Shown: positions 18,810 to 56,755 of the stretch, in pieces | Numbering within the stretch: the stretch's first letter is position 1 | Layout of the letters: each line of letters opens with the position of its first letter | NCBI RefSeq assembly: GCF_018882055.1 | Contig: NZ_JACVPF010000001.1 | Span: forward strand, 248,001-312,000 | Source: Polynucleobacter sp. es-MAR-4 | GTDB taxonomy: Bacteria; Pseudomonadota; Gammaproteobacteria; Burkholderiales; Burkholderiaceae | DNA length: 64,000 nt | Direction: 5' to 3' | Made by a program: the position numbers and the translations under genes | The notes under the pieces: generated by a model | Seen by the model: the letters and a program-made list of their open reading frames with translations, nothing else | The model's database searches: none | Told to the model about the DNA's origin: nothing

Positions 18810-18859
18810 TCGTACAATCTAGTCATTAATGTAATTAAAACATGAAAGGAGGGGTGGAT

Positions 18860-32400: not shown

Positions 32401-33013
32401 CGGGATCAAAAGCCCGAATTTGCTCAATCTCATCACCAAAGAGATCGAGGCGATAAGGCAGACTCGAGCCCATCGGAAATAAATCAATCAAGCCGCCACG
32501 AATGCTGTATTCACCCGGACGCATGACTGAACTGACGGGGTCATAACCGGCTTGCTGCAACTGAAGTTTTAGTGCCGCCTCATTGAGCTTGTCACCTTGT
32601 CTAAAAAAGAAAGTGTGGCCAGATAAAAAGTTTGGCGGCCCGAGTCGCTGTAAAGCCGTGGTGATAGGCACCAAGACAATGTCGCAACTGCCGTTGAGTA
32701 ATTCATAGAGCGTTGCTAAGCGTTCTGAGACCAAATCCTGATGTGGTGAGAAATGGTCATACGGCAGAATTTCCCAATCGGGCAGTAGGCGTGTTTTGAG
32801 TTGTGGAGCAAATGCTGGAATTTCTTCCAGGAGACGCTGGGCTTCCTGCGCCTGCGCACAGAAAATAACCATGACTGAGAATTCAGATCGATACCGCAGT
32901 GCGGATTGGGCTATTAATGCGGCATCTGATGAGCCAACTAGCCCTGAAAAGGTAAAGCGCTGCCCAGCCCGGGGTGCGGGTATGGGGGGTGCTAGTTTTA
33001 ATGCATCAGACAT
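29459..33013 (-). CDS. mfd: Transcription-repair coupling factor Mfd
   Basis: Mfd removes RNA polymerase stalled at DNA lesions and recruits UvrA. The 1184-aa protein has the UvrB-like N-terminal domains (PDWEILPYDHFSPHQDLVSERLATL), an RNA polymerase-interacting domain (DLSELKIGDPVVHSDHGIGRYQGL), a RecG-like translocase with Walker A GDVGFGKTEVA and the DEEH box in VIVDEEHRFGV, TATPIPRTL, and a C-terminal TRCF domain. The length is close to the E. coli protein (1148). It is divergent from ispD with only about 23 bp between start codons. Confidence 0.95.
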   Translation of the reverse strand: MSDALKLAPPIPAPRAGQRFTFSGLVGSSDAALIAQSALRYRSEFSVMVIFCAQAQEAQRLLEEIPAFAPQLKTRLLPDWEILPYDHFSPHQDLVSERLATLYELLNGSCDIVLVPITTALQRLGPPNFLSGHTFFFRQGDKLNEAALKLQLQQAGYDPVSSVMRPGEYSIRGGLIDLFPMGSSLPYRLDLFGDEIEQIRAFDPDTQRSLYPVKGVRLLPGHEFPFDDASRTAFRGRWREVFEGDPTRCSIYKDANLGIPSAGIESYLPLFFEESSTVFDYFPRSGDPVWLVSIGDVEESIKGFWKDTLSRYEFLKHDLDRPILPPAELFLDVDQFFTAAKPNARLALDKEVDKESKAVPQFLAVPDLAVHRRDADPMNRLRALVSQEKVRVLICSDSNGRKESIRQLFEESNSVAGQNGKPLYPLKPEGFEGVADFIKSDALFGLVTAQLFNGFTWPAENLIVVTEAELFTTTARQRRKGKESESADPDMLFKDLSELKIGDPVVHSDHGIGRYQGLVLLNLAPPKEEPIFEEFLHLVYAKDATLYVPVQQLQMVTRYAGSDPDSAPLHQLGSGQWDKARRKAAQQIRDTAAELLSLYAARAIRKGHAFEFSAHDYAAFAESFGFEETPDQANAIAAVIGDMTSGTPMDRLVCGDVGFGKTEVALRASFVAVMGGKQVAILAPTTLLAEQHVATWKDRFADWPVRIVELSRFKTTKEINAALEAIAKGEADIIIGTHKLLSKETQFANLGLVIVDEEHRFGVRQKDALKALRAEVDILTLTATPIPRTLGMAMEGLREFSIIATAPQKRLAIKTFVRREGDGVIREAVLREIKRGGQVYFLHNEVETIQNRKHALQELIPEARISVAHGQMHERELESVMREFVTQRTNILLCTTIIETGIDVPTANTIIMHRADKFGLAQLHQLRGRVGRSHHQAYAYLLVPDPEALSKQAQLRLNAIQAMEELGSGFYLAMHDLEIRGAGEVLGDKQSGEIHEIGFQLYTEMLNRAVKSLRSGKEPDLLSPLQATTDVNLGVPALFPNDYCPDVHERLSMYKRFAGTNDFSELMGLREELVDRYGDLPDQAKSLYETHRLRLEMSGFGIKKIDASPSSIQIQFIPNPPIDPMKIIQLIQSSKYIQLNGQDKLKILPQKEKDFEKLEQRLDHIRKILRSLNESAMLNTVKAN

Positions 33014-33036
33014 CTCCGCTCATTATAGAATCAGGT

Positions 33037-33786
33037 ATGCACCCAGCAAATCAATCTTCACCCCAATGTCACGCCTTGTTACCTACGGCTGGAACGGGAT
33101 CTAGGCTTGGTGGAGCTTTACCAAAGCAGTTTCAGGAATTGGCGGGCAAGCCAATGCTGGCCTATGCATTAGAGGCATTTTCTAAGGCACCAGAGATTGC
33201 TTCGATTTGGGTTGGTGTTAGCCCCGGATTTATTGACAACCCGATCTTGAGTTCACTTTCCGCCAAATCTGCCTTTATTCAATTTCTTCCGAGCGGTGGC
33301 CCAACTCGCCAAGAAACCGTCAGAAATACTCTGGCAGCTATGCTCAAGGCCGGCGTTCCGGAAACAGACTGGGTCTTAGTTCATGATGCCGCCCGACCTG
33401 GGATTTCTTCCGAGCTGATTCAAAAACTCATTAGCGCAGTCACGCTGGCTGGTGAGGGCGGTCTCTTGGCAATGCCGTTAGCAGATACCTTAAAAATGGC
33501 TGATGCCAACTCCGCAATTGCCGGCAATCCTAATAGGGCGATGAAGACGATTTCTCGAGATCATCTTTGGCAGGCTCAAACCCCTCAGATGTTTGGTTTA
33601 AAACGCCTGCATGATGCAATTGAAGAGGGTATACGACTAGAAGCTGATATTACTGATGAGGCAAGTGCAATGGAGCTTTCAGGCTCAAGCCCTTTATTGA
33701 TAGAGGGCGCTACTCGTAACTTCAAAGTAACCCATCCAGCAGATTGGGATTTGATGCAAACTATTCTGCAGGCCACCTCTAAATAA
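33037..33786 (+). CDS. ispD: 2-C-methyl-D-erythritol 4-phosphate cytidylyltransferase
   Basis: IspD transfers CMP to methylerythritol phosphate in the MEP isoprenoid pathway. From the ATG at 33037 the protein is 249 aa and starts just before the nucleotide-binding loop LLPTAGTGSRLGGALPKQF. LVHDAARPGIS and RDHLWQAQTPQMF are conserved family segments. The longer frame from 32974 would overlap the divergent mfd start and adds a non-conserved hydrophobic stretch, so it is rejected. There is no Shine-Dalgarno; a TATAGA hexamer ends eight bases before the ATG, compatible with a leaderless or near-leaderless mRNA. ispF follows after 27 bp. Confidence 0.9.
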   Translation: MHPANQSSPQCHALLPTAGTGSRLGGALPKQFQELAGKPMLAYALEAFSKAPEIASIWVGVSPGFIDNPILSSLSAKSAFIQFLPSGGPTRQETVRNTLAAMLKAGVPETDWVLVHDAARPGISSELIQKLISAVTLAGEGGLLAMPLADTLKMADANSAIAGNPNRAMKTISRDHLWQAQTPQMFGLKRLHDAIEEGIRLEADITDEASAMELSGSSPLLIEGATRNFKVTHPADWDLMQTILQATSK

Positions 33787-42953: not shown

Positions 42954-42977
42954 TTTTCCATTCTAGAAAATTTCTAC

Positions 42978-43658
42978 ATGAACAAACAGTCTAATTCCAT
43001 TGTTGCCGATCGTGTTGGCAAGCTGGTAAATACGGCTGACGGCAACCTCAGTATTTTGCAAGATTTGAGCTTTCAAATTACGCAGGGTGAAAGCGTGGCC
43101 ATTGTTGGAGCCTCTGGCTCTGGAAAGAGCACCTTGTTAAGTCTACTGGCTGGCTTAGATCTGCCAAGTACTGGTCAGATTGACCTAATGGGGCAACCCC
43201 TTAATCTGCTCGATGAGGATGGTAGGGCTAGATTGCGCGGCCAGTATGTTGGCTTTGTTTTTCAATCATTTCAGCTATTGCCACACCTAACGGCCTTAGA
43301 GAACGTCATGCTTCCATTAGAAATGGCTGGCGTATCACAGTCGGATGCAAAACAGGCAGCCCTTGATTGTCTGGAAAAGGTCGGTTTAGGGTCTCGCGCC
43401 AATCACTTTCCAAAGACCCTCTCCGGGGGCGAGCAGCAACGCGTGGCACTGGCCCGAGCTTTCATTAATAAGCCTGCCATTCTCTTTGCAGATGAGCCAA
43501 CCGGGAGCCTGGATGAGGCTAGCGGAAATAGGGTGATCGAGCTGCTTTTTGAGCTAAATCATGAGAATTCCTCAACCTTGGTTCTGGTGACCCATGATCC
43601 AGCCTTGGCTGCTCGGTGCGGACGTCAATTAAGTCTTCAGGGCGGCCGCCTGGTTTAA
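42978..43658 (+). CDS. ABC transporter ATP-binding protein, YbbA/LolD-like
   Basis: This 226-aa ATPase belongs to the MacB/LolD/YbbA class of mechanotransmission ABC systems. It has Walker [11 protein letters not shown] loop [15 protein letters not shown], signature [14 protein letters not shown], Walker [14 protein letters not shown] and switch His in VTHD. The divergent tesA matches the E. coli tesA/ybbA layout, where ybbA is followed by the large permease gene ybbP. No permease gene is present here: purL begins 21 bp later. The partner must be encoded elsewhere, or the protein works with another MacB-type permease. Confidence 0.88.
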
Positions 43659-43667
43659 GCAAAACCT

Positions 43668-43673
43668 TATAAT
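43668..43673 (+). promoter_or_regulatory. Consensus -10 box immediately before purL
   Basis: TATAAT is followed by six bases and then the purL ATG at 43680, so a normally spaced transcription start would fall on the A of the start codon. No Shine-Dalgarno is present. A good -35 is not evident. Confidence 0.5.
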
Positions 43674-43679
43674 CTTCGC

Positions 43680-46600
43680 ATGTCATCATTCTGTTGCTTG
43701 CCCGGGGCAAATGCCCTTTCAGCCTTCCGCCAACAGCGACTTTTAGCCTCGCTCGCAGCCCAAGGAATTCTTCTTGAGTCCATAGAGGCTCAATACCTTC
43801 ATTTCGTTTGGTCTGAGCCAGAGCTCAATGCCAAAGACAAAGAGGTGCTCGAGAGTCTTCTGACTTACGGCCAACCTTTTGTACCTCAATTGAAGGGTGG
43901 CTCCTTATTTACTAAAGCCGCTGATAAACAATCTGCGATTGCTATTCCTCGCTTTGGGACTGTTTCCCCATGGGCTAGTAAGGCAACTGATATTGCTCGC
44001 CAATGTGGACTTCAGGTCCTGCGTATTGAGCGTGGTGTTCAGTATGCATGGCAGAGTAAAAAATCACTCAGCACAGAACAACAGCAGTTAGTGTTAGGCG
44101 CTTTGCATGATCGGATGACCGAGGCTGTTATCTCAGATGTCAACGAAGCTAGTGCTTTGTATCAATCCCTGCCTGATCGCCCATTTGTCCGTATCCCGGT
44201 AATAACTGAGGGTAGGGCTGCTTTGGATAAAGCAAACCAAGAACTTGGCCTTGCCTTATCGGAAGATGAAGTGATTTATCTGGTTGAGAATTTCATTCGC
44301 CTTGAGCGAAATCCAAGTGATGTTGAATTAATTATGTTTGCGCAAGCGAATAGCGAACATTGCCGCCATAAGATTTTCAATTCAAGCTGGACGATCGATG
44401 GTGACGATCAAGAGAAATCTCTATTTGCGATGATTCGCAATACGCATCAACTGCAGCCAGAAGGTACGATCGTTGCCTATTCTGATAACTCAGCAGTGAT
44501 GGTGGGAGCCGAGTCCGAAACTTGGTCCTCTAAAGGTGAGGGTCGTCGTTACGAAAAAGATACCCGTCTTATTCACACCCTAATGAAGGTGGAGACCCAC
44601 AATCACCCGACGGCGATCGCACCATTCCCAGGAGCCTCTACTGGTGCTGGCGGCGAGATTCGTGATGAAGGTGCCACTGGTGTTGGTGGGCGTCCTAAAG
44701 CAGGTCTTACTGGCTTCTCTGTTTCAAACCTTAATATCCCTGGTACTGATTTGCCTTGGGAGTCTGAAAAGTATGGCAAACCAGAGAGAATCGCCACACC
44801 ACTTCAGATCATGATTGAAGGGCCATTAGGTGGCGCAGCATTTAATAATGAATTTGGTCGCCCGATTCTAGGTGGTTATTTCCGTGTATTTGAGCAAACT
44901 TTAGAAGGTGTGCGTCGCGGTTATCACAAGCCAATCATGATTGCCGGCGGTATTGGAAGTATTGATTCAATCCACACCGCTAAGAAAGAAATTAAAGCGG
45001 GTCATTTGTTTATTCAATTGGGTGGCCCTGGTATGCGAATCGGCATGGGTGGTGCAACTGGAAGTTCTGTTGCAACTGGAACTAATACTGCAGATTTAGA
45101 TTTTGATTCAGTCCAACGCGGCAACCCTGAAATGGAACGCCGTGCACAAGAGGTAATCAACTCTTGTATTGCCATGGGTCAAAATAATCCAATCGTTTCA
45201 ATTCATGATGTTGGTGCAGGCGGTATTTCCAATGCATTCCCAGAGCTTGCTGATGGCGCCGGTCTAGGTGCGCAATTTCAATTGCGCAATGTTCCACTAG
45301 AGGAAAGTGGCATGAGTCCCGCGGAGATTTGGTGTAATGAATCTCAAGAACGTTATGTATTGGCTATCGAAGCTAAAGATCTAGAGCTGTTTAAGTCACT
45401 CTGTGAACGTGAGCGATGCCCATTTGCTGTGGTCGGCGAAGCAACTACCGAACGACAGCTCCAGTTGGGTGATAACAAAGCAGTTGCTGGTACTGATGCT
45501 GCAATGCCCATTGATATGCCAATGGAAGTATTGTTAGGTAAGCCACCACGTATGCATCGTGACGTGAAGCGCGTTGCTCAACAGTTTGATGAATTAAATG
45601 TCACTGACGCTGATCTTGCCCAATGCATTGCTTGGGTTCTGCAACAACCAACAGTTGCCAGCAAATCCTTCTTGATTACTATTGGCGATCGTACCGTTGG
45701 TGGTCTCAATGCTCGTGATCCATTTGTTGGGCCATGGCAAGTTCCTGTTGCGGACTGTGCAGTTACCTTGATGGATTACAAGGGCTACCGTGGTGAAGTT
45801 ATGACCATGGGCGAGCGTACTCCATTGGCCGTGATTGATGCACCAGCCGCTGCCAAGATGGCAGTTGGTGAAGCCATTACCAATCTATTGGCTGCGGATA
45901 TTCGTCGCCTAGAGGATGTTAAGTTGTCAGCTAACTGGATGGCTGCCTGCGGTGCACCCGGTGAGGATGCCAAATTGTATGACTCAGTTAAAGCGATCGG
46001 TATGGAGTTGTGCCCAGCCCTTGGAATTTCTATTCCAGTAGGTAAAGATTCTTTATCGATGGCTACTGCATGGCAAGAGGGCGATCAAGCCAAGAAAGTG
46101 GTTTCTCCAGTCTCCTTAATTATTTCTGCTTTTGCTGCAGTCCAGGACGTTCGTAAAACTACAACACCTTTGCTTAAACTCAAAGATGAAACTGACGCAG
46201 CATTAGAAACTGAGTTGATCTTGATTGATTTAGGTCGCGGTAAAAACCGCATGGCGGGAAGCATTCTTGCTCAAGTACTCAATCAATCTGGTAAATCAGC
46301 CCCGAATGTAGATCACCCAGAAGATCTGAAGGCACTTGCTACTGCCATCATTGAGCTGCGCAAAGCAGATCAGTTGCTGGCTTACCATGACCGTTCTGAC
46401 GGCGGCTTGTTCGCCTGTATTGCAGAGATGGCATTTGCATCGCATACCGGCATTTCAATGAATGTCGACATGATTGCCGTTGATATTGGCCAAGAGGCTG
46501 ATTGGGGTGATGCTAAAAACTGGGCGCAACAAGTGTCCGGTCGACGTCATGAGCAAACCATGCGTGCTTTATTTAATGAAGAACTTGGTGCGGTAATTCA

Positions 46601-47711
46601 GATTCGTAAAGCAGATCGCGACGCAGTATTTGCTGTGTTGCGTAAATTGAACCTAAGCGCTTACAGTCACGTTATTGCAAAACCAAATACCAATGGCCGA
46701 ATTGAAATTTGGCGTGATGCGAAAAATATCTTTGCCGAGCCACGTGAAGTCCTGCAAAAGATGTGGGCTAACACGAGTTATCAGATCGCTCGCTTGCGCG
46801 ATAACCCAGATTGCGCTGATAGTGAGTTTGCACTTCTTGATAACGTTGCCGATAGTGGAATGTCACCAAAGCTGACATTTAATGTTGCTGACGATATTGC
46901 CGCACCATTCATCAACAAGAATGCTAGGCCTAAGGTTGCCATTTTGCGCGAGCAGGGCGTTAACTCTCATGTAGAGATGGCTTATGCCATGAATTGGGCT
47001 GGCTTTGATAGCTATGATGTTCATATGTCAGATCTGCTTTCTGGTAAATCCAAGTTAGAAGATTTCCGTGGCCTGGTTGCCTGCGGTGGATTTAGCTATG
47101 GAGACGTATTGGGAGCGGGTGAGGGTTGGGCGAAAACTATTCTGTTTAATGCTCAATTACGTGATCAATTCTCCTCATTCTTTAATCGCCAAGATAGCTT
47201 TGCATTAGGCGTCTGTAATGGTTGCCAAATGATGAGCAATCTAGCAGGAATCATTCCTGGCGCTGAAGCTTGGCCTAAATTTACCCGCAATCAATCTGAG
47301 CAATACGAGGCACGATTAGTGATGGCTGAAGTGATGGCATCACCTTCTATCTTCACACAGGGTATGACAGGAAGTCAGCTACCTATCGCTATTGCGCATG
47401 GCGAGGGCTTTGCTAACTTTAGCCAACAAGGCAATTTGGAGGCACTTCAGAAACAAGGGCTAGCTGCTCTACGTTTTGTGGATCACCAAGGTAATCCAAC
47501 TGAAACCTACCCAATGAACCCAAATGGTTCGCCTGGTGGCTTAACTGGTGTTACAACTCCAGACGGACGCTTCACAGTCATGATGCCGCATCCTGAGCGC
47601 GTCTTTAGGGCTGTGCAGATGAGCTGGGCACCAAAGGAATGGTTAGATACTCCCGATGGTGCTAGTCCTTGGATGCGCTTATTCCGTAACGCTAGAGTCT
47701 GGGCAAAGTAA
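43680..47711 (+). CDS. purL: Phosphoribosylformylglycinamidine synthase
   Basis: PurL makes FGAM in purine synthesis as a single large chain. The 1343-aa protein has the N-terminal PurS-like domain, the first synthetase half ([39 protein letters not shown]), the second half ([15 protein letters not shown] and later the [12 protein letters not shown] segment), and a C-terminal glutaminase domain with nucleophile Cys in GVCNGCQM and a His-Glu pair near [10 protein letters not shown]. The start is supported by homologues beginning just before [21 protein letters not shown] box six bases upstream suggests a leaderless transcript. Confidence 0.96.
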
Positions 47712-47715
47712 TCTA

Positions 47716-48492
47716 ATGCCAGATTCATCAATGGCGATGGAGCCGGTTACGTTTTCTGAAAGTGGTGGAGTGCGCTATTTGCACTTTGGGAGCGAGTTAA
47801 TTCAGGGGGCAATGCGCATTCGAGATCCAGATGAGATTTATCTGGAATACAACCAGCAAATGATGGCTTGGCTATTGTTTTTGGAGACTAAGCCGGGCAT
47901 GCGTATTGCTCAACTTGGCTTAGGAACTGGCGCTCTGACCAAGTTTGCTCATCGTTATTGCCCAGCTGTAAAAACGACGGTTGTTGAGCTCAATCCTGCT
48001 GTGATTGTTTCTGCTCGCAGTATGTTCTTCACGCCAGATGATGATCGTCGCCTAGAAACCTTACAAACCGATGCCAAGGCTTTTGTTGGGGCCGCAAAGT
48101 ATCGTGATCACTTCGATGCAGTTCAAGTTGACTTGTATGACGCAATTTGTGATGGTCCAGCTGCGAGCTCTTTAGAGTTCTACAAAGGTTGCTACGATAT
48201 TCTCAAGTCACCTGGTGTACTAACGGTGAATTTGTTTTCTCGCCATAAGAGCTTTGATATCAATTTAAACAATATCTGTGAAGCATTTGATAACCGGGTT
48301 CTACTATTTCCGGAGTCGCATGACTGCAACGTGGTAGCAATTGCGTTCAAAGGCCCTCAGTTGGAAGTGGAGTGGAAAGAAGTATCGAAGCGCGCTAAAT
48401 TGATCATGGAAAAAACTGGTTTACCTACAAATACATGGGCATCAGGCTTAAACCGTGAAAATGCCCGTCAAGAAAATAAACTCAGCATCTAG
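47716..48492 (+). CDS. Spermidine synthase-like protein (polyamine aminopropyltransferase fold)
   Basis: This 258-aa class I methyltransferase-fold protein has IAQLGLGTGALTKF for the nucleotide loop, VVELNP for the acidic residue after the second strand, LQTDAKAFVG for the next binding segment, and VQVDLYDAI where spermidine synthases carry the catalytic Asp. The N-terminal segment YLEYNQQMMAWLLF resembles the substrate lid of SpeE. It is shorter and less conserved than true SpeE, and many such proteins have unknown substrates, so a polyamine role is only possible. The start at 47716 lies four bases after the purL stop; the longer frame from 47656 would lie inside purL and is unlikely. Confidence 0.75.
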   Translation: MPDSSMAMEPVTFSESGGVRYLHFGSELIQGAMRIRDPDEIYLEYNQQMMAWLLFLETKPGMRIAQLGLGTGALTKFAHRYCPAVKTTVVELNPAVIVSARSMFFTPDDDRRLETLQTDAKAFVGAAKYRDHFDAVQVDLYDAICDGPAASSLEFYKGCYDILKSPGVLTVNLFSRHKSFDINLNNICEAFDNRVLLFPESHDCNVVAIAFKGPQLEVEWKEVSKRAKLIMEKTGLPTNTWASGLNRENARQENKLSI

Positions 48493-55747: not shown

Positions 55748-56713
55748 TTAATGTCCGCTAGAAGGCGGTCTCGTAGCATCTGCCAATAAATCGGTTTTAA
55801 ACACCTGTCTGCAATCAACTGCATCAAAGCGATAAGCTTTCGCACAGAAATCACACTCAGTTTCTACAGCGCCTTGTTCGGCAAGAATGCTTTCTACTTC
55901 TTCTTCGCCGAGCATTCTAAGGACATCGGCTACCTTAGCTCGGGAGCAGCGACATCCGAACCGAACGGGGCGGGGCGGAAAGCTACGTACACCACTCTCC
56001 GTCGACTCCTCCAAAAAGAGGCGTCGCAGAATAGTTTCTGGTGGAAGGGTTAGCAACTCTTCATTGGTAATCGTTTCACCAAGAGTCTGAATTCTCGTCC
56101 AGCCTTCAGCGGCTAGTTGTGGATCTAGATGGGCGTGTCCGCCTGAATCAGGTAAGCGTTGCAAAAGCAATCCACCTACATGAGTATCGTTAGATGTCAG
56201 CCAAATGCGGGTATCTAATTGCTCCGAATTTTGCATATACAGTGCAATAGCCTCAGCGGCGCTGGTAACAGGTTTAATCACAGTACCGCGGTGTTCTTGG
56301 AGAGCAACAATACCTTGATAAGGAGGTTGGCCAGGCTGGCGGTCGGATGGGTCTAAAGTGATTACAAGGCGACCAGTATTGTCCGCATCCAGCAATTCTC
56401 CTAAAGTGGCATTGGGATCTATGCTGTCAGCATTTACAGACAGTTTTACTGTTGCCCTCATCGTCAGGTCAGATTTGCACTCGACCACCAGAAGCTGGAT
56501 AGGACCTTTACTTTGGGCTTGAATAATCAAAGTTCCATCAAATTTGAGGCTAGCGCTCAAGAGGGTTGCAGCACCCACAAAATCACCGAGTATGCGGCGT
56601 ACTACCGGAGGATCGTTACGTCGCTCTAAAACAGCCTGCCAAGCGCTGCTAATGGAAACAATTTCCCCGCGGACCGGGGCGCCATCGCACATAAATACAA
56701 GTAATTCGTTCAT
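55748..56713 (-). CDS. hslO: Redox-regulated chaperone Hsp33
   Basis: Hsp33 is an oxidation-activated holdase. In the 321-aa protein the zinc-binding cysteines are in FGCRC and CDFC, separated by 30 residues, within the C-terminal redox switch. The N-terminal domain includes RRILGDFVGAATLLSASLKFDG. It is convergent with ftsB and divergent from gltX. A GATACT hexamer lies seven bases upstream of the ATG with no Shine-Dalgarno, another possible leaderless start. Confidence 0.94.
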   Translation of the reverse strand: MNELLVFMCDGAPVRGEIVSISSAWQAVLERRNDPPVVRRILGDFVGAATLLSASLKFDGTLIIQAQSKGPIQLLVVECKSDLTMRATVKLSVNADSIDPNATLGELLDADNTGRLVITLDPSDRQPGQPPYQGIVALQEHRGTVIKPVTSAAEAIALYMQNSEQLDTRIWLTSNDTHVGGLLLQRLPDSGGHAHLDPQLAAEGWTRIQTLGETITNEELLTLPPETILRRLFLEESTESGVRSFPPRPVRFGCRCSRAKVADVLRMLGEEEVESILAEQGAVETECDFCAKAYRFDAVDCRQVFKTDLLADATRPPSSGH

Positions 56714-56755
56714 AGGTGAAAGTATCCACTTTTTTGTGGGTGGGGGTACTAAATA

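Follow-up and report, generated by a model that had tools for sequence, protein, structure and literature searches.

A TATAAT element at a fixed distance from the purL start codon points to a leaderless purL transcript in the genus Polynucleobacter

Introduction

In the window analysed here, a whole stretch of 64,000 nucleotides from the 1.93 Mb assembly of Polynucleobacter sp. es-MAR-4, a -10 element TATAAT (43668-43673, plus strand) ends six bases before the start codon of purL (ATG, 43680-43682), raising the question of where the purL transcript begins and how its translation is initiated. An initial annotation made from the letters of the window had proposed that purL probably begins with a leaderless mRNA, that there is no room for a ribosome-binding site before the gene, and that similar boxes before four other genes suggest leaderless initiation to be common in this organism. 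The TATAAT was confirmed at the above coordinates, six bases before the ATG.

The 'TA-led' leaderless genes described by Zheng et al. (2011) are marked by a TANNNT signal some 12 bp ahead of the start codon; of 71 betaproteobacterial genomes, 9 were found to contain leaderless genes, which made up 6.8% of the genes on average in those nine (PMC3160421). In Cupriavidus metallidurans, 4.67% of the primary transcription start sites (TSSs) have leaders shorter than 5 nt (PMC7563307), and in Burkholderia cenocepacia 72 TSSs were located at the start codon and 42 within 10 nt, 24 of these transcripts being tRNAs; a TA-rich promoter motif immediately preceded the leaderless genes (PMC4603805). Leaderless mRNAs are bound by 70S ribosomes at an AUG located at, or close to, their 5' end, and in E. 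coli they favour AUG, other start codons working poorly (PMC9031893). Polynucleobacter is not mentioned in the main text of PMC3160421, nor is purL in the main texts of PMC7563307 and PMC4603805, and a search on Polynucleobacter found no mapped 5' ends and no paper on leaderless transcripts in the literature collection used.

Results

The purL start region

The purL gene (43680-47711, plus strand) encodes an FGAM synthase of 1343 aa, for which five FGAM-synthase/PurL Pfam families were matched; the ORF directly after it (47716-48492) had no Pfam match at E 1e-8. The PurL N-terminus aligned with those of its relatives, with the same beginning and the motif F..LPGA.ALS, and among the 30 loci listed the purL ATG was the sole in-frame ATG from the upstream stop to about 20 codons into the match, so that the annotated ATG is very probably the real start. 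Upstream lies a codirectional ABC-transporter ATPase gene (42978-43658, plus strand), whose stop codon is separated from the -10 element by 9 nt and from the purL ATG by 21 nt.

The TATAAT occupies positions -12 to -7 and is followed by the six-base spacer CTTCGC (43674-43679, plus strand), the A of the ATG being 7 bases past the last base of the box. A distance of 7 bp is the stated optimum from a -10 element to the start site, and distances vary around this value (PMC12825309). The A of the purL ATG is thus the position where RNA polymerase normally starts relative to a TATAAT, and from the position of the -10 element and the 7-bp optimum the purL transcript is predicted to begin there (43680, plus strand).

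As the initial annotation had stated, there is no ribosome-binding site: no Shine-Dalgarno (SD) sequence was found in AAAACCTTATAATCTTCGC, which precedes the purL ATG. The region resembles leaderless (TA-led) genes in having a TANNNT about 12 bp before the start codon, no SD sequence before the start, and an ATG where the protein alignment places the start; this ATG was present in each of the 77 genus loci, as read by a script in which ATG codons alone were considered. The other elements of a sigma-70 promoter, a -35 element or an extended -10, were not found in 73 distinct purL upstreams: the best TTGACA match averaged 3.85 mismatches versus 3.55 (s.d. 0.10) in shuffled sequences, which is worse than chance, and the TGn of an extended -10 was present in 0 of 73 (window equivalent 43620-43667), though the TATAAT was invariant. 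The promoter is consequently identified by its -10 element alone, and an activator, or a weak need for a -35 element, is possible.

Conservation of the purL spacing in the genus

At the aligned purL start, the TATAAT ended exactly 6 nt before the ATG in all of the Polynucleobacter loci (n = 77/77), which comprised 73 genomes, the window's own included, and four contigs (L054-L057) that may duplicate others. The purL match was present in 175 of the 186 genus genomes, 73 of which were read for the start, and identity to the 237-residue N-terminal PurL query went down to 42% within the 77 loci. Among 73 distinct 60-nt upstreams, the six columns of the box were invariant (2.0 bits per column), whereas the remaining columns from -42 to -1 held 0.04-1.42 bits, and the spacer was represented by 36 different hexamers. 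A constant length combined with varying letters would follow from the requirement of a fixed start point, and this pattern supports the claim that the purL mRNA is leaderless.

We consider it very likely, as one joint reading, that purL has its own sigma-70-type promoter, a leader shorter than 5 nt and leaderless translation, and that its leader was lost in the genus ancestor. RNA polymerase, placed by the TATAAT, would begin at the first base of the purL start codon, give or take one or two nucleotides, and the mRNA would thus be made without the usual leader. Translation would then follow the leaderless route, with ribosomes starting on the 5'-terminal AUG as 70S particles or with the help of initiation factors, and not via an SD sequence. 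The genus ancestor would have lost a purL leader of tens of bases, and a single exact spacing would have been retained since.

A transcript starting 1-3 nt beside the A of the ATG, and hence carrying a very short leader, overlaps with the above reading, the probabilities of the two being non-additive, and is rather unlikely; the distance from -10 to start does vary around 7 bp (PMC12825309), and the gene starting MKKQYFG and mfd, both described below, have spacings of 6-8 and 8, respectively, but the purL spacing was 6 in every one of the 77 loci, and 6 is also the sharp peak among called genes.

It is improbable that purL is expressed mainly on an mRNA begun in or before the ABC-ATPase gene, as a distal gene translated without an SD sequence, with the TATAAT as a minor promoter. 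The short distance to a codirectional ABC gene and the lack of a recognisable -35 element would fit such an arrangement, but where the ABC gene was matched (66 loci) its stop lay anywhere between 9 and 98 nt from the box, and in the remaining 11 of the 77, which include at least one short piece (L167), it was unmatched, yet box and spacing were constant; a distal gene needs no fixed -10 spacing. Since purL follows the ABC gene closely and in the same direction, a read-through mRNA from the latter may coexist with the transcript from the purL promoter.

More improbable still is that the box and its spacing were kept for the binding of a regulator and not for the position of the transcription start. 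A gene of the purine pathway could have an operator, and the flank AAAACC belongs to a block, AAAACCTTATAATCT, which 102 of 186 genomes carry ahead of ATGTC (always 4 nt from it in the 102 rows, equivalent to 6 from the box, in a search that tolerated 1-12 nt; the other 84 genomes were without the literal block), but outside the TATAAT no column was invariant, and the same spacing precedes unrelated genes. Chance, or a misplaced start codon, can practically be dismissed, for although AT-rich hexamers are common and the bare pattern is not enriched genome-wide when genes are disregarded, the spacing never varied across the 77 loci and alignment of the protein N-termini backs the ATG.

The purL upstream region outside the genus

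The favoured reading of a leaderless purL includes a change in the genus ancestor, on which 76 loci from outside the genus, mostly Burkholderiales and Pseudomonas by their titles, bear. Of these 76 loci, 71 had a TANAAT in the 150 nt before the chosen start, the nearest at 27 nt, where the start was taken as the candidate codon nearest the aligned N-terminus, so that single distances may be off; none of the 76 had a TANAAT 5-8 nt before the start. One of the five loci without a TANAAT (L120) offers just 16 nt upstream. In one Cupriavidus and three Paraburkholderia loci the TANAAT was 75-88 nt upstream, in contrast to 6 in Polynucleobacter, and for this reason a leaderless purL appears not to be common to those loci. 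Since no TANAAT outside the genus was nearer than 27 nt, the simplest reading is that the Polynucleobacter ancestor probably lost its purL leader.

Frequency of the spacing among called genes

Genes were called in 800 kb of the window's own genome (G000), giving 738 starts with 80 nt upstream, by a hexamer-based caller that ignores upstream signals; annotation was not used, and this caller, which underlies all of the gene-start counts including the E. coli control, misplaces ispD at 33001. A caller based on codon usage only was dropped, as it misplaced starts (purL at 43845) and missed tesA.

A count against shuffled controls, of the kind that the initial annotation had proposed as a check, gave an excess at spacing 6 in two species and none in E. 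coli. A TANNNT at spacing 6 preceded 53 of the 738 called starts versus 17.8 ± 4.4 in 100 dinucleotide shuffles (maximum 31), and a TANAAT preceded 18 versus a shuffled 2.0; among divergent genes, the TANNNT was found in 23 of 188 versus 4.7. The second species (G082) yielded 26 of 335 versus 7.5, whereas E. coli MG1655 (five 50-kb stretches, same caller) yielded 3 of 213 versus 3.2. Spacing 6 was a sharp peak across the called genes. The excess, about 35 of 738, suggests that roughly 5% of the genes are leaderless, a minority kind, as in related bacteria, and to that extent the claim that leaderless initiation is common in this organism holds; about one third of the 53 genes are expected by chance, the true cases not being separable one by one.

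All of the 53 genes start with ATG, versus 628 of the 685 others (57 non-ATG). An SD site was present in one of the 53 versus 250 of the 685, a scarcity that is partly mechanical because the box fills the SD window. Among start-consistent G082 orthologs of G000 genes, boxes at spacing 6 were kept in 10 of 11 cases, compared with 26 of 111 for spacings of 12-39 (Fisher p = 2e-5), while the comparison with other near spacings (0-11; 20/33, p = 0.08) is only suggestive. A bare count of TATAATN{5,8}ATG throughout the genome, wherever the genes lie, gave 23 versus 30 in the reversed control and was uninformative without starts: the -10 spacing signal appears solely relative to gene starts.

Other genes with a -10-like box near the start codon

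The four further boxes named in the initial annotation exist, located 7 nt (ispD, TATAGA; hslO, GATACT) or 6 nt (lplT, TAGATT; tesA, TAGAAT) before the start codon. The lplT box (18816-18821; with its six-base spacer, 18810-18821, minus strand) was conserved in G082, and the hslO box (56721-56726; with its seven-base spacer, 56714-56726, minus strand) could be seen at the same spacing in the G082 sequence; hslO itself (55748-56713, minus strand) matched the Pfam family HSP33. The ispD box belongs to a gap shared with mfd that was found in most of the genus genomes, as detailed in the next section. The box of the tesA-like gene (42960-42965; with its six-base spacer, 42954-42965, minus strand) is lineage-specific, given that a TANNNT at 6 was present in only 19 of the 65 loci with both tesA and the ABC gene matched, the window's own included and the tesA starts in distant loci being rough. 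Between the divergent tesA-like and ABC genes lie 24 bp (42954-42977) that contain TTCTAGAA, and a bidirectional leaderless pair was considered there and rejected, since the length on the ABC side varies and the tesA box is at 6 in that minority of loci.

Beyond the window, a gene starting MKKQYFGTDGIR (MKKQYFG; G000:C2:147456-147488), probably glmM, had a TATAAT 6-8 nt before its ATG in 115 of 115 matches, from 114 of the 186 genomes, in a pattern search that permitted 1-25 nt. Counted by eye, the spacing was 7 in 100 matches, 6 in eight and 8 in seven. This gene can be taken as an independent replicate of the purL pattern.

The divergent gap between mfd and ispD

The start codons of mfd (ATG 33011-33013, minus strand) and ispD (ATG at 33037, plus strand) are 24 bp apart (A to A), and the 23-bp gap between the genes (33014-33036) holds a shared symmetric -10, ATTATAGAAT (33022-33031), in which the minus strand carries TATAAT and the plus strand TATAGA/TAGAAT. 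For mfd, the TATAAT is 8 nt before the ATG, an element absent from the initial annotation; for ispD, the TATAGA has a spacing of 7 nt to the ATG, or, if the hexamer is shifted by two bases towards the gene, there is a TAGAAT at 5. The -10 elements of both strands thus overlap in a symmetric core, as in bidirectional promoters.

The gap pattern was found in 155 of the 186 genus genomes, 31 being without a match, and the reversed control gave one match (G162). Among the 150 gap matches listed, with five others outside the listing, the spacers counted by eye were 8 (mfd) and 5 (ispD) in 139, 7 and 6, with the same total, in six, and other combinations in five; the genes flanking the gap were identified in G000 and, for mfd only, in G082.

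For bidirectional promoters built on one symmetric -10, Warman et al. (2026, PMC12825309) report that the two TSSs are commonly 18, 10 or 23 bp apart. The mfd/ispD gap is like them in sharing one pseudo-symmetric -10 element, and differs in that its start codons are 24 bp apart, which could leave little or no leader on either transcript; the word 'leaderless' does not occur in the main text of PMC12825309. From this geometry, mfd and ispD may both be leaderless or nearly so, and the gap is more unusual than purL.

Short divergent gaps in general (35 bp or less, negative values included) were counted in 20 of 94 gene pairs in the 800 kb of G000 and in 2 of 25 in the E. coli stretches, the start calls being approximate.

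Discussion

Leaderless initiation in itself is a known, minority kind of initiation, which here would account for about one in twenty genes. This figure is near those published for Cupriavidus and Burkholderia, which are related betaproteobacteria (PMC7563307, PMC4603805), and near the 6.8% average of PMC3160421. What differs from the TA-led genes described in PMC3160421 is that the spacing of one gene was traced here across one genus.

The loss of leaders in Polynucleobacter might be a route of compaction affecting conserved housekeeping genes such as purL, with its extreme in mfd and ispD, both leaderless or nearly so from one symmetric -10 within 23 bp; we put this forward tentatively, as a proposal with somewhat less than an even chance of being right. 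If true, the 23-bp region would be near the smallest control region for two genes that such a design allows.

Leaderless initiation in the Betaproteobacteria has so far been described chiefly by the share of mapped or predicted start sites that it accounts for. With purL, the arrangement of one gene of the purine pathway can be traced across one genus and set against that of relatives that keep the leader, providing a clean, testable case of a switch from a leadered to a leaderless gene. A constant length between -10 and ATG, together with varying spacer letters, constitutes a criterion based on sequence only, which could find leaderless genes without RNA data.
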